From contig CAISJL010000110.1 of NCBI GenBank assembly GCA_903885665.1, forward strand, positions 1 through 64,000: a stretch of DNA of 64,000 nt, given 5' to 3'. The translations under genes and the position numbers were made by a program. Source of the stretch: an uncultured beta proteobacterium (GTDB lineage: Bacteria; Pseudomonadota; Gammaproteobacteria; Burkholderiales; SG8-41). Below are positions 5,278 to 40,620 of this stretch, piece after piece. The notes under the pieces are model-generated. The model made no database searches and was not told where the DNA came from. It worked only from the letters and a program-made list of their open reading frames with translations. Position 1 is the first letter of the stretch; each line of letters starts with the position of its first letter.

Positions 5278-5385
5278 TTACTAAGGTGCTTATTAAGGTA
5301 TTTACTCAGGTAATTACTAACGGACTTACTAAGATACTTACTATCGTACTTACTAAGCTATTTACTCAATCAATTAATATTAATA
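5278..5385. repeat. Degenerate 12-bp tandem repeat, nine units
   Basis: Starting at 5278, consecutive 12-mers read TTACTAAGGTGC, TTATTAAGGTAT, TTACTCAGGTAA, TTACTAACGGAC, TTACTAAGATAC, TTACTATCGTAC, TTACTAAGCTAT, TTACTCAATCAA, TTAATATTAATA. The first five bases are nearly fixed, the rest varies, and no unit has gained or lost a base. The array lies between the nth terminator and the 3' end of the downstream cytochrome gene (minus strand), overlapping its last 6 bases. A 62-codon frame that crosses it simply translates the repeat and is not taken as a gene. Confidence 0.9.
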
Positions 5386-17970: not shown

Positions 17971-20706
17971 ATGGAATCGAACCCTCAACAAAACAAACCC
18001 AGTAGCGCAAGCCCGATCCCCCAGGCAATTAGCTACAGTCGGTATTTAGAACGACTCTGCCAAGCGCACGCCGGGCTATCAAATCATTTACGCTTAGATC
18101 AGTGGTCACAGCCCTTTTTAGCTGCAGATATGCGTCAATACTTGGATGCGGCCACAGTCAACGACAGCCACAGCCTAGGGATTAGACTGCGCGAATTACG
18201 CCAACAGGTGATGGCGCGACTGATCGTGCGCGACCTGAGTAATCTTGCCAGCTTAGATGAGGTGGTGACCACAATCACCATCTTCGCTGAGATTGCCATT
18301 CAAAGCGCACTCCACCGCTTGCAACAGGAATTAAGCCTACTGCATGGTCAACCGCGCGGACTGAGCGCAGGCGAGCCGCAACAACTGCACGTGATTGCTA
18401 TGGGCAAACTGGGCGGTTCAGAACTCAACGTCTCCTCAGACATTGATTTGGTGTTTATTTACCCCGAAGACGGCGACACCGATGGTGCTCGATCCATCAG
18501 CAACCACGAATATTTCAATCGCTTGGCTCGACAACTCATCGGCATGCTCAGCGAACGCACTGCCCAGGATTATGTATTTCGGGTAGATACCCGCTTAAGA
18601 CCCTACGGTGATAGCGGCCCGTTGGTAGCGAGCTTCGATATGCTAGAAAATTACTTCATCACTCAAGGCCGCACTTGGGAGCGCTACGCCTGGATTAAAG
18701 CCCGACCTTTGAGTGGCGATCAACAAGCCACTTTACTCAACATTATCAAACCGTTTGTTTATAGACGTCACCTCGATTACGCCGGCATTGCCGCGATTCG
18801 CACCCTACATCAGCAAATACGCGATGAAGTCAAACGCCACGATCGCTATGACCATATCAAACTCGGCCCAGGTGGCATCCGTGAAATTGAATTTATTGTA
18901 CAAGTGTTTCAACTCATCCGCGGTGGTCACGAACGACAACTCCAAGTCTATGGCACACGTCCTATGCTTGACATCATCGCTGAGCGACAACTCCTACCCG
19001 AAACGAATTGTAGAGCACTGCAATCTGCCTATTTATTTCTACGTCAAGTCGAGCATCGCTTGCAATACCGCGATGATCAACAAACCCACAGTCTGCCGAC
19101 CAATACCGATGAACTAGACCGCCTCGCACAGAGCCTAGGGTTTGACACCGCCACTGCATTTAAACAAACGCTAGATACGCATCGCGATCAAGTCACGCAA
19201 CAATTCAATGCCATCTTTGCCGATACCGATGAAGCACCTCACCCCTTAGCCTTTTTATGGACAGAACCAATCGCCGATACTGCTACAGCGACTGCAACCT
19301 TGAATCAATTAGGGTTTAGGGAAAGCGCTGAGTTGTGGCGTCAAATCAGCACCTTGCGCCAAAGTAGTCGCTATCGTCAATTACCGGCCAGCAGTCAACA
19401 TCGTCTCGATCACTTAATACCTGTCGCAATTGCTACGGCTGCAACTTGCGCAAACCCTGACCGCACTGCCGAGCGCCTGCTCAATTTATTCGAACAAATC
19501 AGCCGCCGCGAAGCATATCTCGCGCTGCTGCACGAATATCCGCAGGCATTAGCACGAGTCGCCGACCTGATGAGCGCGAGCGCGTGGGTCGCACAATACA
19601 TCTCGCGCTATCCTATACTGCTAGACGAACTGCTCGATGGCCGCACCTTAATGCAAGCGCCAGACTGGCAGTCGCTGGGTGATCACCTGAAGATGGAACT
19701 CCATGCAGCCGAGAATGATATCGAGCGTCAAATGGATGTGTTACGCCATTTCAAACATACCCAAACTCTCCACTGTGTTGCACAAGATCTAGCCGGTACA
19801 CTATCTCTTGAAACACTCAGTGATCAGCTCTCTGACCTCGCCCACACCATCCTAAAAATTGTGCTCGAACAGGCATGGCAAGGACTAGCCCAAACACATC
19901 GGCCGGATCCGCAGTTTGCGATTGTGGCCTACGGCAAGCTTGGTGGAAAAGAGTTGGGATACGCCTCAGACCTTGACTTAGTGTTTATCTATCAAGATGA
20001 CCATCCCGATGCGCCTGAGCGCTACGCCAGACTGACGCAACGGATCAATAATTGGCTCAGTAACACCACCGCCGCCGGTGTGCTCTATGAGACTGACTTG
20101 CGACTACGGCCAGAGGGTAATAGTGGTTTACTGGTCAGCAGCCTTGCGTCATTTGAACAATACCAATTACATCAAGCTTGGACCTGGGAGCACCAAGCCC
20201 TGACCCGCGCTCGTGCCGTCGCGGGTGAGGCCGCGATTTGCCAACGCTTCGAAGTGCTACGTAGCCAAATCCTGCGCCAACAACGCGAGCTTCCAACCTT
20301 GCGCACACAAATTCTCGAGATGCGTACCACCATTCATAAAGCCCACCCTAACACGAGTGGCTTATTCGATCTCAAACATGACTCAGGTGGCATTATTGAT
20401 GTCGAATTTATCGTCCAATTCTTAATATTAGGCTATAGCTGGCAATATCCCGAGCTCACCCGCAACGCTGGCAATATTGCATTGTTACGGATTGGAGCGA
20501 GCACAGGGCTGATCGCCCCCGAACTGGCGAGCCAGGTTGCCAATGCCTATCGTCAATACCGCCAATGCCAGCACCAATGTCGCTTGGCCGGCGACCGCTA
20601 CGCCCGCACTGCAGCATCCCCTTTGGCAACAGCCATCAACGCAGTGCAAACGCTGTGGCAAGTGCTACTTCAGCCCTCAAACACGGCCAACAAAAAGGAA
20701 ATCTAA
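17971..20706 (+). CDS. glnE: Bifunctional glutamine synthetase adenylyltransferase/adenylyl-removing enzyme
   Basis: Controls glutamine synthetase by attaching and removing AMP in response to PII and glutamine. The 911 residues contain two nucleotidyltransferase domains. The N-terminal adenylyl-removing half has GKLGGSELNVSSDIDLVF at about 145-162. The C-terminal adenylylating half has GKLGGKELGYASDLDLVF at about 655-672. Each keeps the paired Asp residues (DIDL/DLDL) that bind metal, and each is followed by its REIEFIVQ or DVEFIVQF motif. Length and order are normal. It is divergent from yhdP, and ilvE follows on the same strand. Confidence 0.97.
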   Translation: MESNPQQNKPSSASPIPQAISYSRYLERLCQAHAGLSNHLRLDQWSQPFLAADMRQYLDAATVNDSHSLGIRLRELRQQVMARLIVRDLSNLASLDEVVTTITIFAEIAIQSALHRLQQELSLLHGQPRGLSAGEPQQLHVIAMGKLGGSELNVSSDIDLVFIYPEDGDTDGARSISNHEYFNRLARQLIGMLSERTAQDYVFRVDTRLRPYGDSGPLVASFDMLENYFITQGRTWERYAWIKARPLSGDQQATLLNIIKPFVYRRHLDYAGIAAIRTLHQQIRDEVKRHDRYDHIKLGPGGIREIEFIVQVFQLIRGGHERQLQVYGTRPMLDIIAERQLLPETNCRALQSAYLFLRQVEHRLQYRDDQQTHSLPTNTDELDRLAQSLGFDTATAFKQTLDTHRDQVTQQFNAIFADTDEAPHPLAFLWTEPIADTATATATLNQLGFRESAELWRQISTLRQSSRYRQLPASSQHRLDHLIPVAIATAATCANPDRTAERLLNLFEQISRREAYLALLHEYPQALARVADLMSASAWVAQYISRYPILLDELLDGRTLMQAPDWQSLGDHLKMELHAAENDIERQMDVLRHFKHTQTLHCVAQDLAGTLSLETLSDQLSDLAHTILKIVLEQAWQGLAQTHRPDPQFAIVAYGKLGGKELGYASDLDLVFIYQDDHPDAPERYARLTQRINNWLSNTTAAGVLYETDLRLRPEGNSGLLVSSLASFEQYQLHQAWTWEHQALTRARAVAGEAAICQRFEVLRSQILRQQRELPTLRTQILEMRTTIHKAHPNTSGLFDLKHDSGGIIDVEFIVQFLILGYSWQYPELTRNAGNIALLRIGASTGLIAPELASQVANAYRQYRQCQHQCRLAGDRYARTAASPLATAINAVQTLWQVLLQPSNTANKKEI

Positions 20707-20780
20707 GCGGACCGAGGACGGCAACACTCAAATCAGCTAAACTATCGTCTTTAAACGGGTGAATCCACCTACTTTCAAGC

Positions 20781-20834
20781 CTATTTTTGGATTATTTATA
20801 TTTTTTCGATTATTTAAATTTTTTCGATTATTTA
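20781..20834. repeat. 18-bp tandem repeat, three units
   Basis: Units CTATTTTTGGATTATTTA, TATTTTTTCGATTATTTA and AATTTTTTCGATTATTTA follow each other with strict 18-bp spacing, ending 32 bp ahead of the ilvE ATG. Because 18 is a multiple of three, the ilvE frame stays open through the array and falsely extends the gene upstream. Confidence 0.9.
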
Positions 20835-20866
20835 CACTAATTGCATTTTTTGAGGAGATTTCCAGC

Positions 20867-21793
20867 ATGTCTATGGCTGATCGTGACGGGCAAATTTGGT
20901 ACGACGGTAAATTAGTACCTTGGCGGGATGCAACAACCCACGTCCTCACTCACTCACTTCACTATGGCCTAGCCGTGTTTGAGGGCGTGCGCGCCTACAA
21001 CACCGATATTGGCACAGCTATTTTTAAGCTTAAAGACCATACCGACCGGCTGTTTAATTCGGCCCATATCTACATGATGAAAATCCCCTACAGCCGTGAT
21101 GAGTTAATGGCTGCGCAAAAAGAAGTGGTACGCGTTAACAATCTCGAATCTTGCTATATCCGTCCGATTGCTTTTTTTGGTTCGGAAAAAATGGGGGTCT
21201 CACCCAAAGGCGCTAGCGTACATGTGGCTATTGCCGCCTGGCCGTGGGGCGCTTATCTCGGACCTGAAGCCATTGAAAAAGGTATTCGGGTAAAAACCTC
21301 ATCCTTTGCCAGACACCATGTCAATGTCTCGATGTGTCGTGCTAAATACTCGGGCACTTATGCCAATTCGATCTTAGCCAATCTTGAAGCCACAGAGCAT
21401 GGCTATGATGAAGGGCTATTACTCGACGTTGATGGCTTTGTCGCTGAAGGCTCTGGCGAGAACTTATTCATGGTCAAAAATGGTAAGTTATACGAGCCTG
21501 AACTCACCAGCGCCTTGATGGGCATTACGCGTGACTCCATCATCACCCTAGCTAAAGAAATGGGCTACGAAGTGGGTTCACGCCGCATCACTCGCGACGA
21601 CTTGTATATTGCAGACGAGGCCTTCTTTACTGGAACAGCCGCAGAGGTCACACCGATTCGCGAAGTCGATGGCCGCACCATTGGTAGCGGTGAGCGCGGG
21701 CCAATTACTGCACGCCTCCAGAAGAAATTTTTTGAATGCGTCAACGCGCAAGCCCCTGAGCACTTAGACTGGCTCTCTCCTGTGAATAGCTAA
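20867..21793 (+). CDS. ilvE: Branched-chain amino acid aminotransferase
   Basis: PLP enzyme (fold type IV) for the last step of Leu, Ile and Val synthesis. With the start at 20867 the protein has 308 residues and begins MSMADRDGQIWYDGKLVPW, as in the family. GAGGAGAT 8-15 bp upstream supports this start; the 36 codons before it are low-complexity repeat translation. The PLP Lys is K160 in MCRAKYSGTYANS. Further motifs are EGVRAYNT, GFVAEGSGENLFMV, and EAFFTGTAAEVTPIREVDGR. The zinc-finger gene starts 6 bp after the stop, so they are one operon. Confidence 0.96.
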   Translation: MSMADRDGQIWYDGKLVPWRDATTHVLTHSLHYGLAVFEGVRAYNTDIGTAIFKLKDHTDRLFNSAHIYMMKIPYSRDELMAAQKEVVRVNNLESCYIRPIAFFGSEKMGVSPKGASVHVAIAAWPWGAYLGPEAIEKGIRVKTSSFARHHVNVSMCRAKYSGTYANSILANLEATEHGYDEGLLLDVDGFVAEGSGENLFMVKNGKLYEPELTSALMGITRDSIITLAKEMGYEVGSRRITRDDLYIADEAFFTGTAAEVTPIREVDGRTIGSGERGPITARLQKKFFECVNAQAPEHLDWLSPVNS

Positions 21794-21799
21794 ACCATC

Positions 21800-22003
21800 A
21801 TGACCGAACCAACAACCAATCGCTCCCGCCTCGTCGAAATTACTGCCGATGAGTTACCACTACATTGCCCCACACCCGAGATGATGATTTGGAACACCCA
21901 CCCGCGGGTGTTCTTACCCATCGAAAAAACTGGTAACGCTTTGTGCCCCTACTGTGGAACACGCTACCTGCTCACTGGTGGTGCAGTTGCCGGTCACCAC
22001 TAA
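21800..22003 (+). CDS. CHCC-type zinc-finger protein
   Basis: Small protein of 67 residues with a CHCC zinc site: C23, H34, C49 and C52 (LHCP...NTHPRVF...CPYCGTRYLL). This is the zf-CHCC domain also found in the NDUFS6 subunit of complex I. The ilvE-zf-waaF order is conserved in Burkholderiales. The function is unknown. Translation may be coupled to ilvE (6-bp gap). Confidence 0.88.
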   Translation: MTEPTTNRSRLVEITADELPLHCPTPEMMIWNTHPRVFLPIEKTGNALCPYCGTRYLLTGGAVAGHH

Positions 22004-22050
22004 GCAGCACCAGGTCGAGTCTTGATTCACTGTCAACTCCACCTCGCAGC

Positions 22051-23064
22051 ATGAACGTACTTGTTGTTGGCCCCTCTTGGGTGGGTGATACCTTAATTGC
22101 CCAACCCTTATTTCAACTGCTCAAACAAAACCATCCCAAGGTGGAAATCGATGTCCTTGCACCGCCCTGGACACAAGCACTTCTAGCACGCATGCCTGAA
22201 GTGCGACAAAGCATCGTCAATCCCTTCGGTCATGGCAGTTTACAACTGTCAGCCAGACGACAATTGGGGCTGCGTTTGCGTCATCAATATCAACAAGCCA
22301 TTGTGCTACCCAATTCTTGGAAGTCAGCACTACTGCCATGGCACGCCAACATTGCCTTGCGCACAGGCTACACTGGTGAAGCTCGCTGGGGACTGCTGAA
22401 CGATCGCCGCCAACTAGACTCACTCACCCATCCACAGTTAGTCGAACGCTACGCTGCACTTGCACTGCCTGCAAGCGCGAGTCTGCCATCCCGGCTACCA
22501 TTACCAGCACTTATTAGCCGACCTGAGCAGCAACAGCAGATTGTCCAACGCTTGAATCTGGACCTATCCAAACCAGTGATTGCACTTTGCCCTGGCGCTG
22601 AGTATGGCACTGCAAAACGCTGGCCTGCCAAGCACTTTGCTACGCTCGCCCAAGCGCTTCACGCCCGGGGTGCTACGGTCTGGTTAATCGGCTCAGGCAA
22701 AGACCAAGCACTCGCCCAACACATTATGAGCGAGAGTCAAAATACCTGCATCAATCTGTGCGGCCTGACGAATATTGCTGAGGCTGTTGACCTGCTAGCC
22801 ATTGCCCGATTAATCATTACCAACGACTCTGGGCTCATGCATGTGAGCGCCGCAGTAGGTCGCCCTTTAATCGCAATCTACGGCTCGAGCTCACCGCTAT
22901 TCACGCCGCCACTGAGCCCTCAAGCCACCCTGGTGAATTTAAAATTACCCTGTAGCCCGTGCTTCAAGCGCGAGTGCCCACTAGGACACTTGAATTGCTT
23001 ACATCAAATCACCCCAGAACACCTCATCAGTCAAATCGATTTTGATACCCTAAAGCTGAGCTAA
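22051..23064 (+). CDS. waaF: ADP-heptose:LPS heptosyltransferase II
   Basis: Adds the second heptose to the lipopolysaccharide inner core at the cytoplasmic face of the inner membrane. The frame is open from 21943, but the ATG at 22051 gives the family's N-terminus MNVLVVGPSWVGDTLIAQPL and a normal length of 337 residues. GT9 motifs are CPGAEYGTAKRWP and TNDSGLMHVSAAVGRP (nucleotide-sugar site), then IYGSSSPLFTPP. Near the end, CSPCFKRECPLGHLNC holds four Cys, as in many WaaF proteins. It lies 47 bp after the zinc-finger gene. Confidence 0.94.
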   Translation: MNVLVVGPSWVGDTLIAQPLFQLLKQNHPKVEIDVLAPPWTQALLARMPEVRQSIVNPFGHGSLQLSARRQLGLRLRHQYQQAIVLPNSWKSALLPWHANIALRTGYTGEARWGLLNDRRQLDSLTHPQLVERYAALALPASASLPSRLPLPALISRPEQQQQIVQRLNLDLSKPVIALCPGAEYGTAKRWPAKHFATLAQALHARGATVWLIGSGKDQALAQHIMSESQNTCINLCGLTNIAEAVDLLAIARLIITNDSGLMHVSAAVGRPLIAIYGSSSPLFTPPLSPQATLVNLKLPCSPCFKRECPLGHLNCLHQITPEHLISQIDFDTLKLS

Positions 23065-23083
23065 ACCGCATGAGGAGTGCATT

Positions 23084-23527
23084 TTGAATAACACACTATT
23101 TGCTACCCCGCTAGACGCTGAAATGGCTTTCTATCGAGCATTTGCGCATCGTGACCTCGAGGCCATGATGGCCGTGTGGTCTGATGATGATGAGAATTAC
23201 TGCATACACCCCAACGGCATACGCCTATCTGGACTGATGGCCATTCGAGAGTCTTGGCGTGCCCTATTTGCAACGAATACCAAATTACAATTTATGCTCA
23301 GTCAACGCCAAGTGATTCACTCAGGCATGCTTGCAGTTCACAATCTTTACGAACAAATTACTATCATCGGTCAGACCAGCACACCCCAACCCTTGTTAGC
23401 AACCAATATTTACTTACGCGGTAATTTAGGTTGGCGCATGGTCGCTCACCATGCCGCGCCGGCAATCAGCATTGATACCACCCAAGCGGCCCCTGATCGT
23501 AAGCCCCCATCCACAACGCTACATTAA
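23084..23527 (+). CDS. NTF2/SnoaL-like protein
   Basis: Small protein of 147 residues with the NTF2-like cone-fold pattern: an N-terminal helix AEMAFYRAFAHRDLEAMMAVW, then EDEN/CIHPNG and RESWRALF, and late strands (NIYLRGNLGWRMVAHHAAPA). Such proteins resemble the SgcJ/calcium-kinase-associated group; a specific reaction cannot be named. The start is the TTG at 23084, with GAGGAG about 8 bp upstream. It follows waaF by 19 bp, the usual place for this gene in Burkholderiales, and probably ends the ilvE operon. Confidence 0.8.
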   Translation: MNNTLFATPLDAEMAFYRAFAHRDLEAMMAVWSDDDENYCIHPNGIRLSGLMAIRESWRALFATNTKLQFMLSQRQVIHSGMLAVHNLYEQITIIGQTSTPQPLLATNIYLRGNLGWRMVAHHAAPAISIDTTQAAPDRKPPSTTLH

Positions 23528-23735
23528 AGTACAACAATGCAGACTGCACCCTGAAATCAGAGCTGCCCATCAATCATGATTTTCTCGATATCAGCCCAAA
23601 TATTCCAGCATATGAGAATCGACAACCGAACACGGTCATTCAAAGCGTAAAATCTTTCACTGGTTAATTAACATTCTTAGATCCTTAGATCCCTACCCCC
23701 AGCGCTCCCCTAATAAACTCTCGGAGGATATTTTT

Positions 23736-24512
23736 ATGAACGCACCAGCCATCCATCTCAATAAACCAGTACGCGAGGCCGTCAGCCCAGCAGAGTGGGA
23801 AGCACGTGTTAATTTGGCCGCATGCTATCGACTCATGGCGCAATTCGGCATGGTCGAAATGATTGCCAATCATATTTCGGTGCGAGTCCCAGACACAGAA
23901 GATCAATTCTTAATTAACCCATACGGCTTGCTCTACGAAGAAATGAATGCATCGTCGATGATTAAAATTGACATCAATGGCAAGGTCATTTTTAATGCGA
24001 CTGATTATGACGTCAATGAGGCGGGGTTTGTCATTCATAGTGCAATCCATGCTGCACGTCACGACGCAAACTGTGTCATTCACACCCATACCCTAGCTGG
24101 TATGGCAGTGTCTGCAATGAAATGCGGTATTCTACCGATCGCTCAATCCTCGATGCGCTTTTTAGATATTGCTTATCACGACTACGAGGGTATTGCTTTA
24201 CGGCTTGAGGAGCGCGAGCAACTCGTCAAAAATCTAGGTCATCGCGAAGCCATGGTCTTGCGTAACCACGGCCTACTCACTGTAGGCCCAAGCATTGCCG
24301 AATGCTTTAATAACATGTATCGACTTGAGCGCGCCTGTGAATTACAAGTCATGGCACTGTCTTGTAACACCGAACTACAACTACCACCGACTGAAGTTGT
24401 GAAATACAGCAACGAAAAAATGCTCCCTGGTGTGCGCCGCCGTTTCGGTGTGTTGGAATGGCCCGCCATGCTACGCAAACTAGACCGCGTCGATACCTCA
24501 TATAAACAATAA
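23736..24512 (+). CDS. Class II aldolase/adducin family protein
   Basis: Zinc-dependent aldolase-fold protein of 258 residues. Visible motifs are NHISVRVP, FLINPYGLLYEE, then the metal site VIHTHTLAGMAVSA, and RNHGLLTVG holding the third His. The family includes fuculose-1-phosphate aldolase and many decarboxylases/hydratases of unknown substrate; none can be chosen here. A strong ribosome site (GGAGGA) precedes the ATG. A LigI-like amidohydrolase lies 243 bp downstream on the same strand, separated by a 14-bp repeat array, so the two may serve one organic-acid pathway. Confidence 0.88.
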   Translation: MNAPAIHLNKPVREAVSPAEWEARVNLAACYRLMAQFGMVEMIANHISVRVPDTEDQFLINPYGLLYEEMNASSMIKIDINGKVIFNATDYDVNEAGFVIHSAIHAARHDANCVIHTHTLAGMAVSAMKCGILPIAQSSMRFLDIAYHDYEGIALRLEEREQLVKNLGHREAMVLRNHGLLTVGPSIAECFNNMYRLERACELQVMALSCNTELQLPPTEVVKYSNEKMLPGVRRRFGVLEWPAMLRKLDRVDTSYKQ

Positions 24513-24586
24513 TACCCCTCTTTTTTGTATAGCATCCACCATACTCAGACGACCGTGGCATCGTATGGTGGATAGCTCACGCTTGC

Positions 24587-24712
24587 CGTTTTAGGTATTT
24601 CGTTTTAGATATTTCGTTTTAGATATTTCATTTCATGTGTTCCGTATTAATTATTTTGCCTTAGGTATTCCGTCTTCGATATTTCGTCTTACGTATTCCG
24701 ACTTAAACCTCA
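24587..24712. repeat. Degenerate 14-bp tandem repeat, nine units
   Basis: Nine consecutive 14-mers from 24587: CGTTTTAGGTATTT, CGTTTTAGATATTT (twice), CATTTCATGTGTTC, CGTATTAATTATTT, TGCCTTAGGTATTC, CGTCTTCGATATTT, CGTCTTACGTATTC, CGACTTAAACCTCA. Phase is kept exactly although up to half the bases differ. It fills most of the gap between the aldolase and the LigI-like gene and stops 43 bp before the latter's ATG. Confidence 0.93.
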
Positions 24713-24755
24713 AAGTTTCTCTCTTTATTCTTAACCTCAATACAAATGGTATCGC

Positions 24756-25634
24756 ATGCAAGCTCCTGTCTGCCCTGGTCCTGACCCACGCCCTCGCACC
24801 CCACGTCACACCATTCCTAAAGGGGTTGTTGACTGCCACTGTCACGTCTTTCCGGATCCACAGCGCTACCCACTCAGCCCTAATCGTAGCTACACACCAG
24901 CGCTGACCACATTGGATGATTATCTCGCCATGTGCGCGGTAGTCGGCATTGAGCGTACCATCCAAGTAAACGCCAGCACGTATGGCACAGACAACTCTGT
25001 GTCCTTAGACGTGATTAAAGCACTAGGGCTTGCACGAGCTCGGGGCGTTGCGGGTGTCGCACCCGACGTCTCGGCGCAAGACTTACGCACTCTCCATGAC
25101 GGAGGCATGCGTGGCGTTCGCCTCTCGACCAAAGTCAAAGGCTATGGCGGCACCGAGCTCATACAAACACTGGCACCAAAAATTAAGCCCTATGGATGGC
25201 ATGTGCAATTACATGTTGAAAATATCCAAGAGTTAGTCGCACTAGAGTCCGAGTTACTGCACTGTCCAGCACCGCTTGTCTTCGACCATCAAGGTCGAGT
25301 GCGTGGTGATCAAGGTGTCAGCAGCCCCGGCTTTCAAGCGCTGTTACGCATAATCAGCGCACGCAATGACTGTTGGGTGAAGTTATCTAGTTGGTATCGT
25401 TTATCCGGCACTGGATTGCCTGATTGCGTCGATATGAAACCAATTATCCAAGCGCTAGTAGCCACTCGCCCCGATCGGCTGGTGTGGGGCACCAACTGGC
25501 CCCATCCCTTGTGGCATGGTTTAATGCCCAATGATGGCGGGTTGATTGATCAGCTATGTGATTGGGTAACTGATCCAAACATTCAACAACAGATTTTGGT
25601 GAGCAACCCCGAACAACTCTACGGCTTCGTCTAA
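24756..25634 (+). CDS. LigI-like amidohydrolase (COG3618 lactonase type)
   Basis: TIM-barrel hydrolase of 292 residues, similar along its whole length to 2-pyrone-4,6-dicarboxylate lactonase LigI. Shared motifs are KGVVDCHCHVFPDPQRYPLS (about 22-41), QVNASTYGTDN, GGMRGVRLS, GWHVQLHVEN and VFDHQGR. The strand-8 motif reads WGTNWPHP. In LigI this is WGTDWPHP with a catalytic Asp, so the catalytic position here is Asn. That may mean another mechanism or substrate, or loss of activity. A lactone or related dicarboxylic acid is a reasonable substrate class, not a firm one. No convincing ribosome site precedes the ATG. Confidence 0.85.
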   Translation: MQAPVCPGPDPRPRTPRHTIPKGVVDCHCHVFPDPQRYPLSPNRSYTPALTTLDDYLAMCAVVGIERTIQVNASTYGTDNSVSLDVIKALGLARARGVAGVAPDVSAQDLRTLHDGGMRGVRLSTKVKGYGGTELIQTLAPKIKPYGWHVQLHVENIQELVALESELLHCPAPLVFDHQGRVRGDQGVSSPGFQALLRIISARNDCWVKLSSWYRLSGTGLPDCVDMKPIIQALVATRPDRLVWGTNWPHPLWHGLMPNDGGLIDQLCDWVTDPNIQQQILVSNPEQLYGFV

Positions 25635-25659
25635 TTCATTTCTGTCTAATTCATATCGG
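25630..25659. repeat. 15-bp tandem duplication
   Basis: TCTAATTCATTTCTG (25630) is followed directly by TCTAATTCATATCGG (25645); 12 of 15 bases agree. The first copy contains the stop codon of the LigI-like gene. Confidence 0.7.
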
Positions 25660-25746
25660 TAAATCAGTGCTGACTTTTGCGATCAACCATTCTGCACTAC
25701 ACACCTTGATGCAAATCTTGTCAATGCAGTTGGGCCCGCACAAGCC

Positions 25747-26721
25747 ATGATCATGCCGCCCTATGAGTCACCTTTTTGGTTACCTAATGGGCATTGCCAG
25801 ACCCTCTATGCAGCTTTATGCAGCCCCAAAGCGCCACTGTATTTTCGACGCGAGCGCTGGAATACCCCCGATGGTGATTTTATTGATCTCGATTGGACCA
25901 CTCCTGAATTACGGGCACCGCGCCCACTACTCGTGCTGTTTCATGGCCTAGAAGGCAGCTCTGAGAGTCGTTACGCCCGCGCCTTGATGCAAGCTGCAAT
26001 CGCACAACAATGGCAAGGCGTAGTGGTGCACTTTCGGGGCTGTAGTGGAGAGGAGAATCGTCAGCCTCGGGCATATCATTCTGGAGATAGCGTAGAGCTA
26101 GACTGGATTCTACAGCGCTTACATGCACAACAAGCTGGCGCCCCACTCTATGCGGTTGGAGTATCTCTTGGCGGCAATGCCCTACTCAAGTGGCTAGGCG
26201 AGCAAGGCAGGCGCGCTGCAACATACATGAGTGCGGCTGCGGCAATTTCTGCACCTTTTGATCTGGCTGCAGCGGGGGACTACTTGGCCCAGGGTTTTAA
26301 TCAACGCTATACCCAACATTTTTTACGGTCTATGAAACGTAAGGCTATATTGAAGCTTGCTCTCTACCCCCATCTATTCGACCGAGAACGCATGCTCAAA
26401 GCCCAAAATCTACGGCAATTCGATGATACAGTTACAGCGCCGCTCCATGGCTTCAGCAGTGTCGACGACTACTGGAGCCGTGCTAGTAGCAAACCTTATC
26501 TAGCCCATATTGCAATCCCAACGCTGCTACTCAACGCTCGCAACGATCCCTTTTTACCGCAGAGCGCCTTGCCCACTGCAGGTGAGATGTCAGCCAGCGT
26601 CACTGCTGTATTTTCTGAGACCGGTGGCCACGTCGGCTTTGTCAGTGGCGCACCGCTAGCCAATTGGTCGTGGCTGACTCAAACCGTTGTACAATTCCTG
26701 CAACAAGCACGCTCAAATTAA
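25747..26721 (+). CDS. YheT-type alpha/beta hydrolase
   Basis: Cytoplasmic alpha/beta-fold hydrolase of 324 residues (COG0429). The N-terminal signature is PFWLPNGHCQTLY. The oxyanion region is LVLFHGLEGSSESRYA, the nucleophile Ser is S140 in GVSLGGNALLKWLGE, the acid is in NARNDPF and the His in GGHVGFV. The ATG at 25753 is an equally good start. YheT relatives are probable carboxylesterases with no settled substrate. It stands alone: 112 bp after the amidohydrolase and 53 bp before the hexomutase. Confidence 0.9.
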   Translation: MIMPPYESPFWLPNGHCQTLYAALCSPKAPLYFRRERWNTPDGDFIDLDWTTPELRAPRPLLVLFHGLEGSSESRYARALMQAAIAQQWQGVVVHFRGCSGEENRQPRAYHSGDSVELDWILQRLHAQQAGAPLYAVGVSLGGNALLKWLGEQGRRAATYMSAAAAISAPFDLAAAGDYLAQGFNQRYTQHFLRSMKRKAILKLALYPHLFDRERMLKAQNLRQFDDTVTAPLHGFSSVDDYWSRASSKPYLAHIAIPTLLLNARNDPFLPQSALPTAGEMSASVTAVFSETGGHVGFVSGAPLANWSWLTQTVVQFLQQARSN

Positions 26722-26774
26722 TTCATCAGCCAAATCGATAACTTACTGATTTTATTGGATATTTTATTTCTCTT

Positions 26775-28160
26775 ATGCCTAATCACTCGCTACCGCCTAG
26801 CGCCATATTCAAAGCCTACGACATCCGTGGCATTGTTGGCACCACATTAACAACTGCCGGCACTGAAGCTATCGGACATGCCATCGGTAGCGAAGCGATT
26901 GATCGCGGGGTCTCTAGCGTAGTCATTGGTCGCGATGGCCGCCTTTCTGGCCCAGACCTGAGTGCAGCACTCGCTCGGGGCCTACAAGCCAGCGGGGTGA
27001 ATGTAATTGATGTGGGCATGGTGGCAACCCCCATACTGTATTTTGCTGCGCATGCATTGGATTCATTCTCTGGAGTGATGGTGACCGGCTCGCACAACCC
27101 ACCCGCTTACAATGGCCTCAAAATGATGTTGGCTGGCGATACCTTATCTGGGGATGTCATCCAGGCGTTGCGCACCCGCTTAGTCCAGCAGCAACTTCAT
27201 CATGGCGCCGGACAATATAGTGAGCACGATATTCGGCCCGCCTATTTAGAACGTATTGTGCAATCGATTCATCTAGCACGACCCATGCACATTGCTGTTG
27301 ATAGTGGCAATGGTATTGCTGGGGCAACTGCCCCAGAGCTGTATCGCCAGCTGGGATGCACAGTAGACGAATTGTTTTGCGAGGTCGATGGCACGTTCCC
27401 CAACCATCATCCAGACCCCTCACAACCCGACAATTTACGCGACCTGATTCATCAACTCGCGCTTGGAAAAGCCGAACTTGGGCTAGCATTTGATGGTGAT
27501 GGCGATCGCCTAGGCGTAGTCACTCCTTCTGGCAGAATCATTTACCCAGACCGCCAATTAATGTTATTTGCAGAAGAAGTGCTGTCACGTCACCCAGGTG
27601 CTGAAATTATTTTTGACGTCAAATGCACTCGCCATTTATTTAGCTGGATCCGCAACCGCGGCGGCATCCCCCTAATGTGGAAAACCGGTCACTCTTTTAT
27701 TAAACAAAAACTCAAACAAACCGGTGCGCCATTAGCTGGCGAGATGAGCGGGCACATCTTCTTTAAAGATCGTTGGTATGGTTTTGATGATGGGATTTAC
27801 GCTGGAGCAAGACTACTGGAGATTCTCAGCCGCAGTGCAAACCCTGGGGCCATACTGGAGGCGCTGCCCGAGGCCGTCAGCACACCTGAACTACAATGGG
27901 AACTAAGCGAAGGCGAGAACTACAGTCTCATGAATACGCTACAAAGCAACGCCAAATTCCCAACAGCACAAGAGATCATTACGATTGATGGCCTGCGCGT
28001 TGAATACGCCGATGGGTTTGGTTTAGCGAGACCTTCGAATACCACCCCAATCATTGTGCTACGCTTTGAAGCAGACAACCAAGCAGCCCTTGAGCGTATC
28101 CAAGCTGATTTTAGAGTCGCACTGATCGCACTCAAACCAGGCGCGACATTACCGTTCTAG
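26775..28160 (+). CDS. Phosphomannomutase/phosphoglucomutase (AlgC type)
   Basis: Interconverts hexose 1- and 6-phosphates for LPS and exopolysaccharide sugars. The 461 residues carry the four alpha-D-phosphohexomutase sites: phosphoserine S106 in VTGSHNPPAYNGLK, the metal loop DGDGDR at 240-245, the sugar loop GEMSGHIFF and the phosphate-binding ARPSNTTPIIVLRFEA near the end. The GEMSGH loop fits the dual-specificity AlgC/ManB group. It is convergent with alaS (22-bp gap). Confidence 0.94.
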   Translation: MPNHSLPPSAIFKAYDIRGIVGTTLTTAGTEAIGHAIGSEAIDRGVSSVVIGRDGRLSGPDLSAALARGLQASGVNVIDVGMVATPILYFAAHALDSFSGVMVTGSHNPPAYNGLKMMLAGDTLSGDVIQALRTRLVQQQLHHGAGQYSEHDIRPAYLERIVQSIHLARPMHIAVDSGNGIAGATAPELYRQLGCTVDELFCEVDGTFPNHHPDPSQPDNLRDLIHQLALGKAELGLAFDGDGDRLGVVTPSGRIIYPDRQLMLFAEEVLSRHPGAEIIFDVKCTRHLFSWIRNRGGIPLMWKTGHSFIKQKLKQTGAPLAGEMSGHIFFKDRWYGFDDGIYAGARLLEILSRSANPGAILEALPEAVSTPELQWELSEGENYSLMNTLQSNAKFPTAQEIITIDGLRVEYADGFGLARPSNTTPIIVLRFEADNQAALERIQADFRVALIALKPGATLPF

Positions 28161-28182
28161 ACAGCCCCATAGGGAGCTCTGT

Positions 28183-28185
<3 letters not shown>
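28158..28185. terminator. Inverted repeat between convergent genes, possible terminator
   Basis: TAGACAG (28158-28164) pairs with CTGTCTA (28179-28185), with CCC/GGG available inside the loop. It includes the stop codons of both the hexomutase and alaS. There is no T run, so termination by this hairpin alone is uncertain. Confidence 0.4.
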
Positions 28186-30807
<2,622 letters not shown>

Positions 30808-40512: not shown

Positions 40513-40542
40513 CAGATCGCCATGAAATCACTTATTCTGACT

Positions 40543-40612
40543 GAATTAGCCTTCATGACTTAGCTTTTATGAATTAACCTCTATTAATTAATCTACATTG
40601 ATTTATCTAGAA
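40543..40612. repeat. Degenerate 14-bp tandem repeat, five units
   Basis: GAATTAGCCTTCAT, GACTTAGCTTTTAT, GAATTAACCTCTAT, TAATTAATCTACAT, TGATTTATCTAGAA in exact 14-bp phase. It fills the 108-bp gap between the amidohydrolase and MmgE/PrpD genes up to 8 bp before the ATG, leaving no recognisable ribosome site. Confidence 0.88.
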
Positions 40613-40620
40613 AGCATCTT

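Follow-up and report, generated by a model that had tools for sequence, protein, structure and literature searches.

Bacterial satellites of 12, 14 and 16 nt built from 6- to 8-nt units have been described in Burkholderia mallei and Burkholderia pseudomallei, and a (GATAGRA)n satellite has been described in Chloroflexus (PMC6749651). In the portions of that source considered here, the origin given for short-repeat satellites is local DNA-duplication errors or heptamer and hexamer repeats, the latter being named as the source of some of the most abundant satellite families in bacteria (PMC6749651); going by these portions, satellites of 14 nt made from 7-nt units are an already known kind. Heptamers are also over-represented in bacteria according to the excerpted text of PMC4692102, which quotes polymerase slippage as a hypothesis. 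Here we describe an array of 14-bp units from the window, that is, the whole stretch of 64,000 nucleotides analyzed from an uncultured beta proteobacterium. We consider it likely that this array is a locally born satellite of the heptamer type, which was doubled to 14 bp, amplified and then decayed within a tolerant, probably transcribed spacer. No paper on this spacer or array was seen in the literature searched, and such papers may exist beyond it.

The array lies at positions 24587–24712 of the forward strand and consists of nine 14-bp units; it was characterized by lag-14 and lag-7 autocorrelation against shuffled sequences, by TRF, and by an alignment in heptamer columns. At lag 14, 76 of 112 positions are identical (0.68), whereas 2000 dinucleotide shuffles of the array gave a mean of 36.2 matches (sd 4.5, maximum 50), and across all lags between 5 and 42 no shuffle went above a fraction of 0.52. 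The repetition of the array is real. Moreover, the periodicity survives a treatment in which indels are allowed: TRF returned two main rows with 0% indels, one of period 14 (24587–24697, score 89) and one of period 28 (24586–24700, score 111), together with a third row that overlaps both (24660–24705, period 14, score 55, 11% indels). The first-pass annotation had described nine 14-mers in exact phase, and the phasing is borne out by the lag-14 identity, but the ninth unit is marginal, since the main TRF rows end at 24697 and 24700. It was right that some units share only about half their bases, as 11 of the 36 unit pairs agree at 7 or fewer of 14 positions, with a minimum of 4, while units 1–3 are nearly identical to one another. 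Across the 126 bp, 20 transitions and 8 transversions separate the units from their consensus, 28 substitutions in all, and there are no indels. Mean likeness between units is 8.5–9.6 of 14 at distances of one to seven units, and no gradient of likeness between neighboring units, which would be a sign of recent slippage, was seen over these first seven steps.

The period of 14 bp proved not to be primitive, as it rests on a 7-bp sub-period that the first-pass annotation had missed. Lag 7 gives 58 matches out of 119 in the array (shuffles: mean 38.3, sd 4.65, maximum 54), lags 21 (0.50) and 35 (0.44) exceed the general level of about 0.3, and lags 7, 14, 21, 28, 35 and 42 are all above background, placing the array among those with a multiple-of-7 period and a 7-bp sub-period. 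In the heptamer frame, 17 heptamers conform to NTTNNGT, with the two TT columns conserved in 17/17 and 16/17, and two types alternate, one parity being approximately YTTAGRT and the other ATTYCGT. Because of this sub-period, the 14-bp unit is best understood as a dimer whose two heptamers have diverged. Possible degenerate extensions in the same phase are found on the forward strand both upstream (24576–24586), where the in-phase heptamer CTCACGC scores highest in the upstream flank, and downstream (24713–24736), where the in-phase mean, taken over five heptamers only, is -2.7 versus -4.6 to -5.9 in the six other phases. Weak in-phase heptamers on both sides are no more than suggestive of an ancestral array that was somewhat longer.

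The array is intergenic, between open reading frames ending at 24512 and starting at 24756. Pfam identifies the upstream gene as a member of the class II aldolase/adducin family (PF00596, 23736–24512), the downstream gene as an amidohydrolase (PF04909, 24756–25634), which has no Shine-Dalgarno word before its start, and the third gene of the likely operon as an alpha/beta hydrolase (PF00561, 25747–26721), all on the forward strand. Rather than filling the gap between aldolase and amidohydrolase, as had been stated, the array takes up 126 bp of a spacer that runs for 243 bp from the aldolase stop (24512) to the amidohydrolase start, and the distance from its end to the ATG at 24756 is indeed 43 bp. 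An open reading frame overlapping the array (24637–24906) has no Pfam match, and a coding array was accordingly rejected, in agreement with the initial view that neither coding nor helical phasing causes the period. An inverted-repeat search found a perfect 11-bp inverted repeat with an 18-nt loop on the forward strand at 24534–24573, 21 nt past the aldolase stop; by eye, no T-run follows this hairpin, which therefore lacks the form of an intrinsic terminator. A scan of 24400–24900, covering loops of 3–8 only, found no intrinsic terminator, and no Rfam family of structured RNA reached its gathering score in 20000–29000. Since the aldolase, amidohydrolase and hydrolase genes are consecutive in eight other loci (L002/L124, L032, L033, L034, L040, L118, L120 and L121), the likeliest position of the array is in a transcribed spacer within an operon. 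In another relative, G042 (locus L031), the aldolase–amidohydrolase pair is present, and such a hydrolase was not found in its stretch.

Within its own genome (3,028,247 bases), the array has no second copy, the next best match having an E value of 0.36, and a dispersed repeat family of the REP-like, STRR-like or TAACTGA-like kind was rejected on this basis. The hairpin region likewise has no second copy there (best other match, E 0.40). As a type, however, arrays of this sort are common: 29 of 227 gaps in the own-genome sample have z ≥4 at some lag, versus 0 of 227 shuffled gaps (671,054 bases; gaps of 80–500 bp; lags 4 to 30; one shuffle per gap; gene limits set by a longest-ORF heuristic), and a smaller first sample gave 19 of 130. 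Periodic gaps were counted elsewhere in 5 of 73 gaps from same-genus relatives, in 3 of 23 from G022 (all at lag 7) and in 1 of 36 from genomes of other families; the same heuristic set the gene limits for these samples and for the intergenic arrays and GC values given below. The best lags of the 29 periodic gaps range from 4 to 18, with 14 the commonest (6), and this spread means that 7-bp slippage alone is insufficient to explain the class. Lag 7 or 14 is best in nine of the 29, giving p 0.02 against equally likely lags in a crude test that was chosen after the data were seen. The array has the third-highest TRF score of the 99 intergenic arrays in the sample; it belongs to a common class, as one of its stronger members rather than an exception. 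With roughly one sampled gap in eight being periodic (29/227), the presence of a conspicuous array next to a gene says little about whether the array regulates that gene.

Several other features of this genome were observed in passing. A second degenerate 14-bp array with a different word occupies the gap at 40513–40620 (lag-14 z 6.5, versus 6.0 for the array described above), and a degenerate 12-bp array of 7.4 copies with the consensus TTACTAAGGTAC and 0% indels lies between convergent genes at 5278–5366, with the highest autocorrelation z among the sampled gaps (7.7). No motif common to the 99 sampled intergenic arrays was found, the top words being AT-only; a hint of a non-AT-only word is AAGGTAT, present in five of the 99 versus 0.47 expected, which may be chance as many words were tested. 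The own-genome (G000) sample has a GC content of 46%, versus 60–65% in the sampled same-genus genomes G001, G005, G014 and G019, and its own intergenic GC outside arrays is 39%.

The orthologous spacers of relatives provide a further comparison. The aldolase search gave a match in 49 of 74 genomes, and loci were examined for 30 of the matches. Fourteen gaps were tested, including that of the window, with the duplicates L031/L117, L041/L111 and L002/L124 each counted once as the same gap by eye; L036–L038, in which aldolase and amidohydrolase are more than 2 kb apart, were left out, as were L116, L119, L125 and 18 loci of the same genus, whose stretches showed no amidohydrolase following the aldolase. 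A lag-7 z of at least 4 was obtained in five of the 14 gaps: the window (4.0, and 4.2 in another run), G042 (6.9), G043 (5.4), G022 (4.3) and G067 (4.0), the values of 4.0 for the window and G067 being at the threshold. For G067, the gap was taken as the 130 bases past the aldolase; an amidohydrolase-like start follows by eye, with none found there by tblastn. The G052 gap has a lag-14 z of 3.8, the G070 and G074 gaps have 8- or 9-bp signals (4.3 and 3.4), and autocorrelation revealed no periodicity in the gaps of G050, L032–L035 and L040. The first-pass annotation had named an orthologous gap lacking any 14-bp periodicity as a refuting outcome, and the gaps are divided on this point: four of the 13 other gaps are periodic at lag 7, three carry the other signals, and six carry none. 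The heptamer words in the relatives' gaps differ from those of the window. In the genome of G042, its spacer finds at least 56 matches at E ≤10, itself included, with 40 of 87 first-look candidates scored; on these matches, the heptamers there are dispersed, unlike the array of the window. Same-genus aldolases are 81–83% identical, and none of the 18 same-genus stretches examined yielded an amidohydrolase downstream of the aldolase; what inspection by eye shows in these loci, within about 120 nt past the aldolase, is a GC-rich hairpin with a T-run.

Other spacers at this place show features of their own. In L118 and L120, a GC-rich, terminator-like hairpin with a T-run is seen by eye about 20–30 bases before the amidohydrolase start, so near that a promoter could hardly fit in between; possibilities would be attenuation or a leaderless start. 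In L121 and L122, inverted arms made up of a roughly 9-bp word of the GCAAAG type are seen by eye, a different kind of short repeat in the same place. A conserved gene pair whose spacer carries differing 7-bp arrays in several relatives could serve for the study of satellite birth and decay.

A function for the array was weighed in several forms. It might be a U- and pyrimidine-rich, weakly structured leader that aids ribosome start on the amidohydrolase; ribosomal protein S1 or some other RNA-binding protein could, for example, mediate this, and the hairpin upstream would protect the aldolase message. Consistent with such a leader, 24587–24755 is 65% C+T, the amidohydrolase start lacks a Shine-Dalgarno word and has a predicted unpaired fraction of 0.67, the highest of four genes (others 0.59, 0.39 and 0.63), and a similar idea has been proposed for TAACTGA heptamers, as far as the cited portion of PMC4679880 goes. 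However, the word is likewise missing from the next two genes, neither of which is preceded by such an array, so that a missing Shine-Dalgarno word was rejected as the mark of an array-bearing gene; the fold of the spacer is ordinary (z -0.99), periodicity is absent from six of 13 other orthologous gaps, and the periodic gaps of this genome occur in all gene orientations, 4 of 29 being between convergent genes. A leader role is possible, nothing specific to such a role was found, and we rate this explanation as unlikely. An evolutionary variant, in which different heptamer arrays arise independently at a recurrent site and are retained for the help that a pyrimidine-rich leader with a 7-nt period gives to the translation of an amidohydrolase gene that has no Shine-Dalgarno word, seems to us very improbable. 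The array might instead gather several sites bound by a DNA-binding protein that regulates an internal promoter, a proposal to which the exact phasing of nine units and the TT conserved every 7 bp would lend some appeal. No sigma-70-like site was found in 24400–24900, however, the least similar units agree at only 4 of 14 bases, the array word with up to three mismatches occurs in the window 19 times versus 13.0 expected, 7 of these inside the array and the remainder at about chance level, and the conserved gene order suggests read-through transcription; we give this proposal the least credence of all. It follows from the scan and from the gene order kept in eight other loci that the original assertion that the array must lie in a leader or promoter was too strong.

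Common ancestry was also considered, in that the array could stem from a heptamer array in the relatives' common ancestor and have later drifted to an AT-rich composition. G042, G043, G022 and G067 do share its place and its 7-bp period, and words similar to the in-phase CTCACGC just upstream of the array occur in relatives' spacers. Against this, column permutation showed that many orders score as well as or better than the actual one (G022, 92/720; G042, 512/720; G043, 208/720; G067, 285/720; G052, 716/720), meaning that the likeness of the words is not special, and, with no amidohydrolase found past the aldolase in any of the 18 same-genus stretches, the set offers no near intermediate. Shared descent of the heptamer words is thus unsupported, and the common-ancestry explanation is quite unlikely.

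We therefore favor a locally born, later decayed heptamer satellite. A T-rich 7-bp word would have been duplicated in tandem, with replication slippage as the presumed generator; two variant heptamers would then have formed a 14-bp higher-order unit, which may have been amplified to about nine copies and subsequently decayed by point mutation. The spacer would tolerate changes in length and sequence, with the aldolase and amidohydrolase genes probably co-transcribed. The 7-bp sub-period beneath the 14-bp period, the alternating heptamer types, the single copy, the high base rate of periodic gaps in this genome, nine of the 29 being best at lag 7 or 14, the third rank by TRF score, the 20 transitions versus 8 transversions, the heptamer periodicity with other words in four of 13 other orthologous gaps and the published 14-nt satellites made from 7-nt units all count for this reading. 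Against it stand the spread of best lags over 4–18 in this genome, the absence of a simple neighbor-copying gradient and the 28 substitutions without an indel, the last a pattern more regular than free decay suggests, although 13 of the 26 long degenerate arrays in the own-genome sample also have 0% indels by TRF and in-phase arrays are preferentially found. Overall, the array appears to be an ordinary short tandem repeat in partial decay, of a type frequent in the intergenic regions of this bacterium and of some relatives, with no sign of a dedicated control element, and such a function is probably absent.

Among described systems, the TAACTGA repeats of Beggiatoaceae resemble the array in being intergenic heptamers before the start codon of a gene that has no clear Shine-Dalgarno word, and the composition of the array and the missing word would be compatible with a translational leader of that kind. 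As presented in the cited part of PMC4679880, however, they consist of one fixed word at many loci, within several nucleotides of the start, whereas here there is one locus, with a decayed word, 43 bp from the start. GGGAATC of Xanthomonas and GGGGA(C/T)T of Nostoc are likewise intergenic heptamer repeats that differ in length and sequence from one related genome to another; in the excerpts of PMC4692102 they are G-rich, quadruplex-forming and dispersed, unlike the array, which has neither G-tracts nor a second copy. The Burkholderia-type satellites share with the array a 14-nt period on a 7-nt unit. As described in PMC6749651, these satellites are CG-rich and occur in families, whereas the array of the window is T-rich, single-copy and much more decayed.
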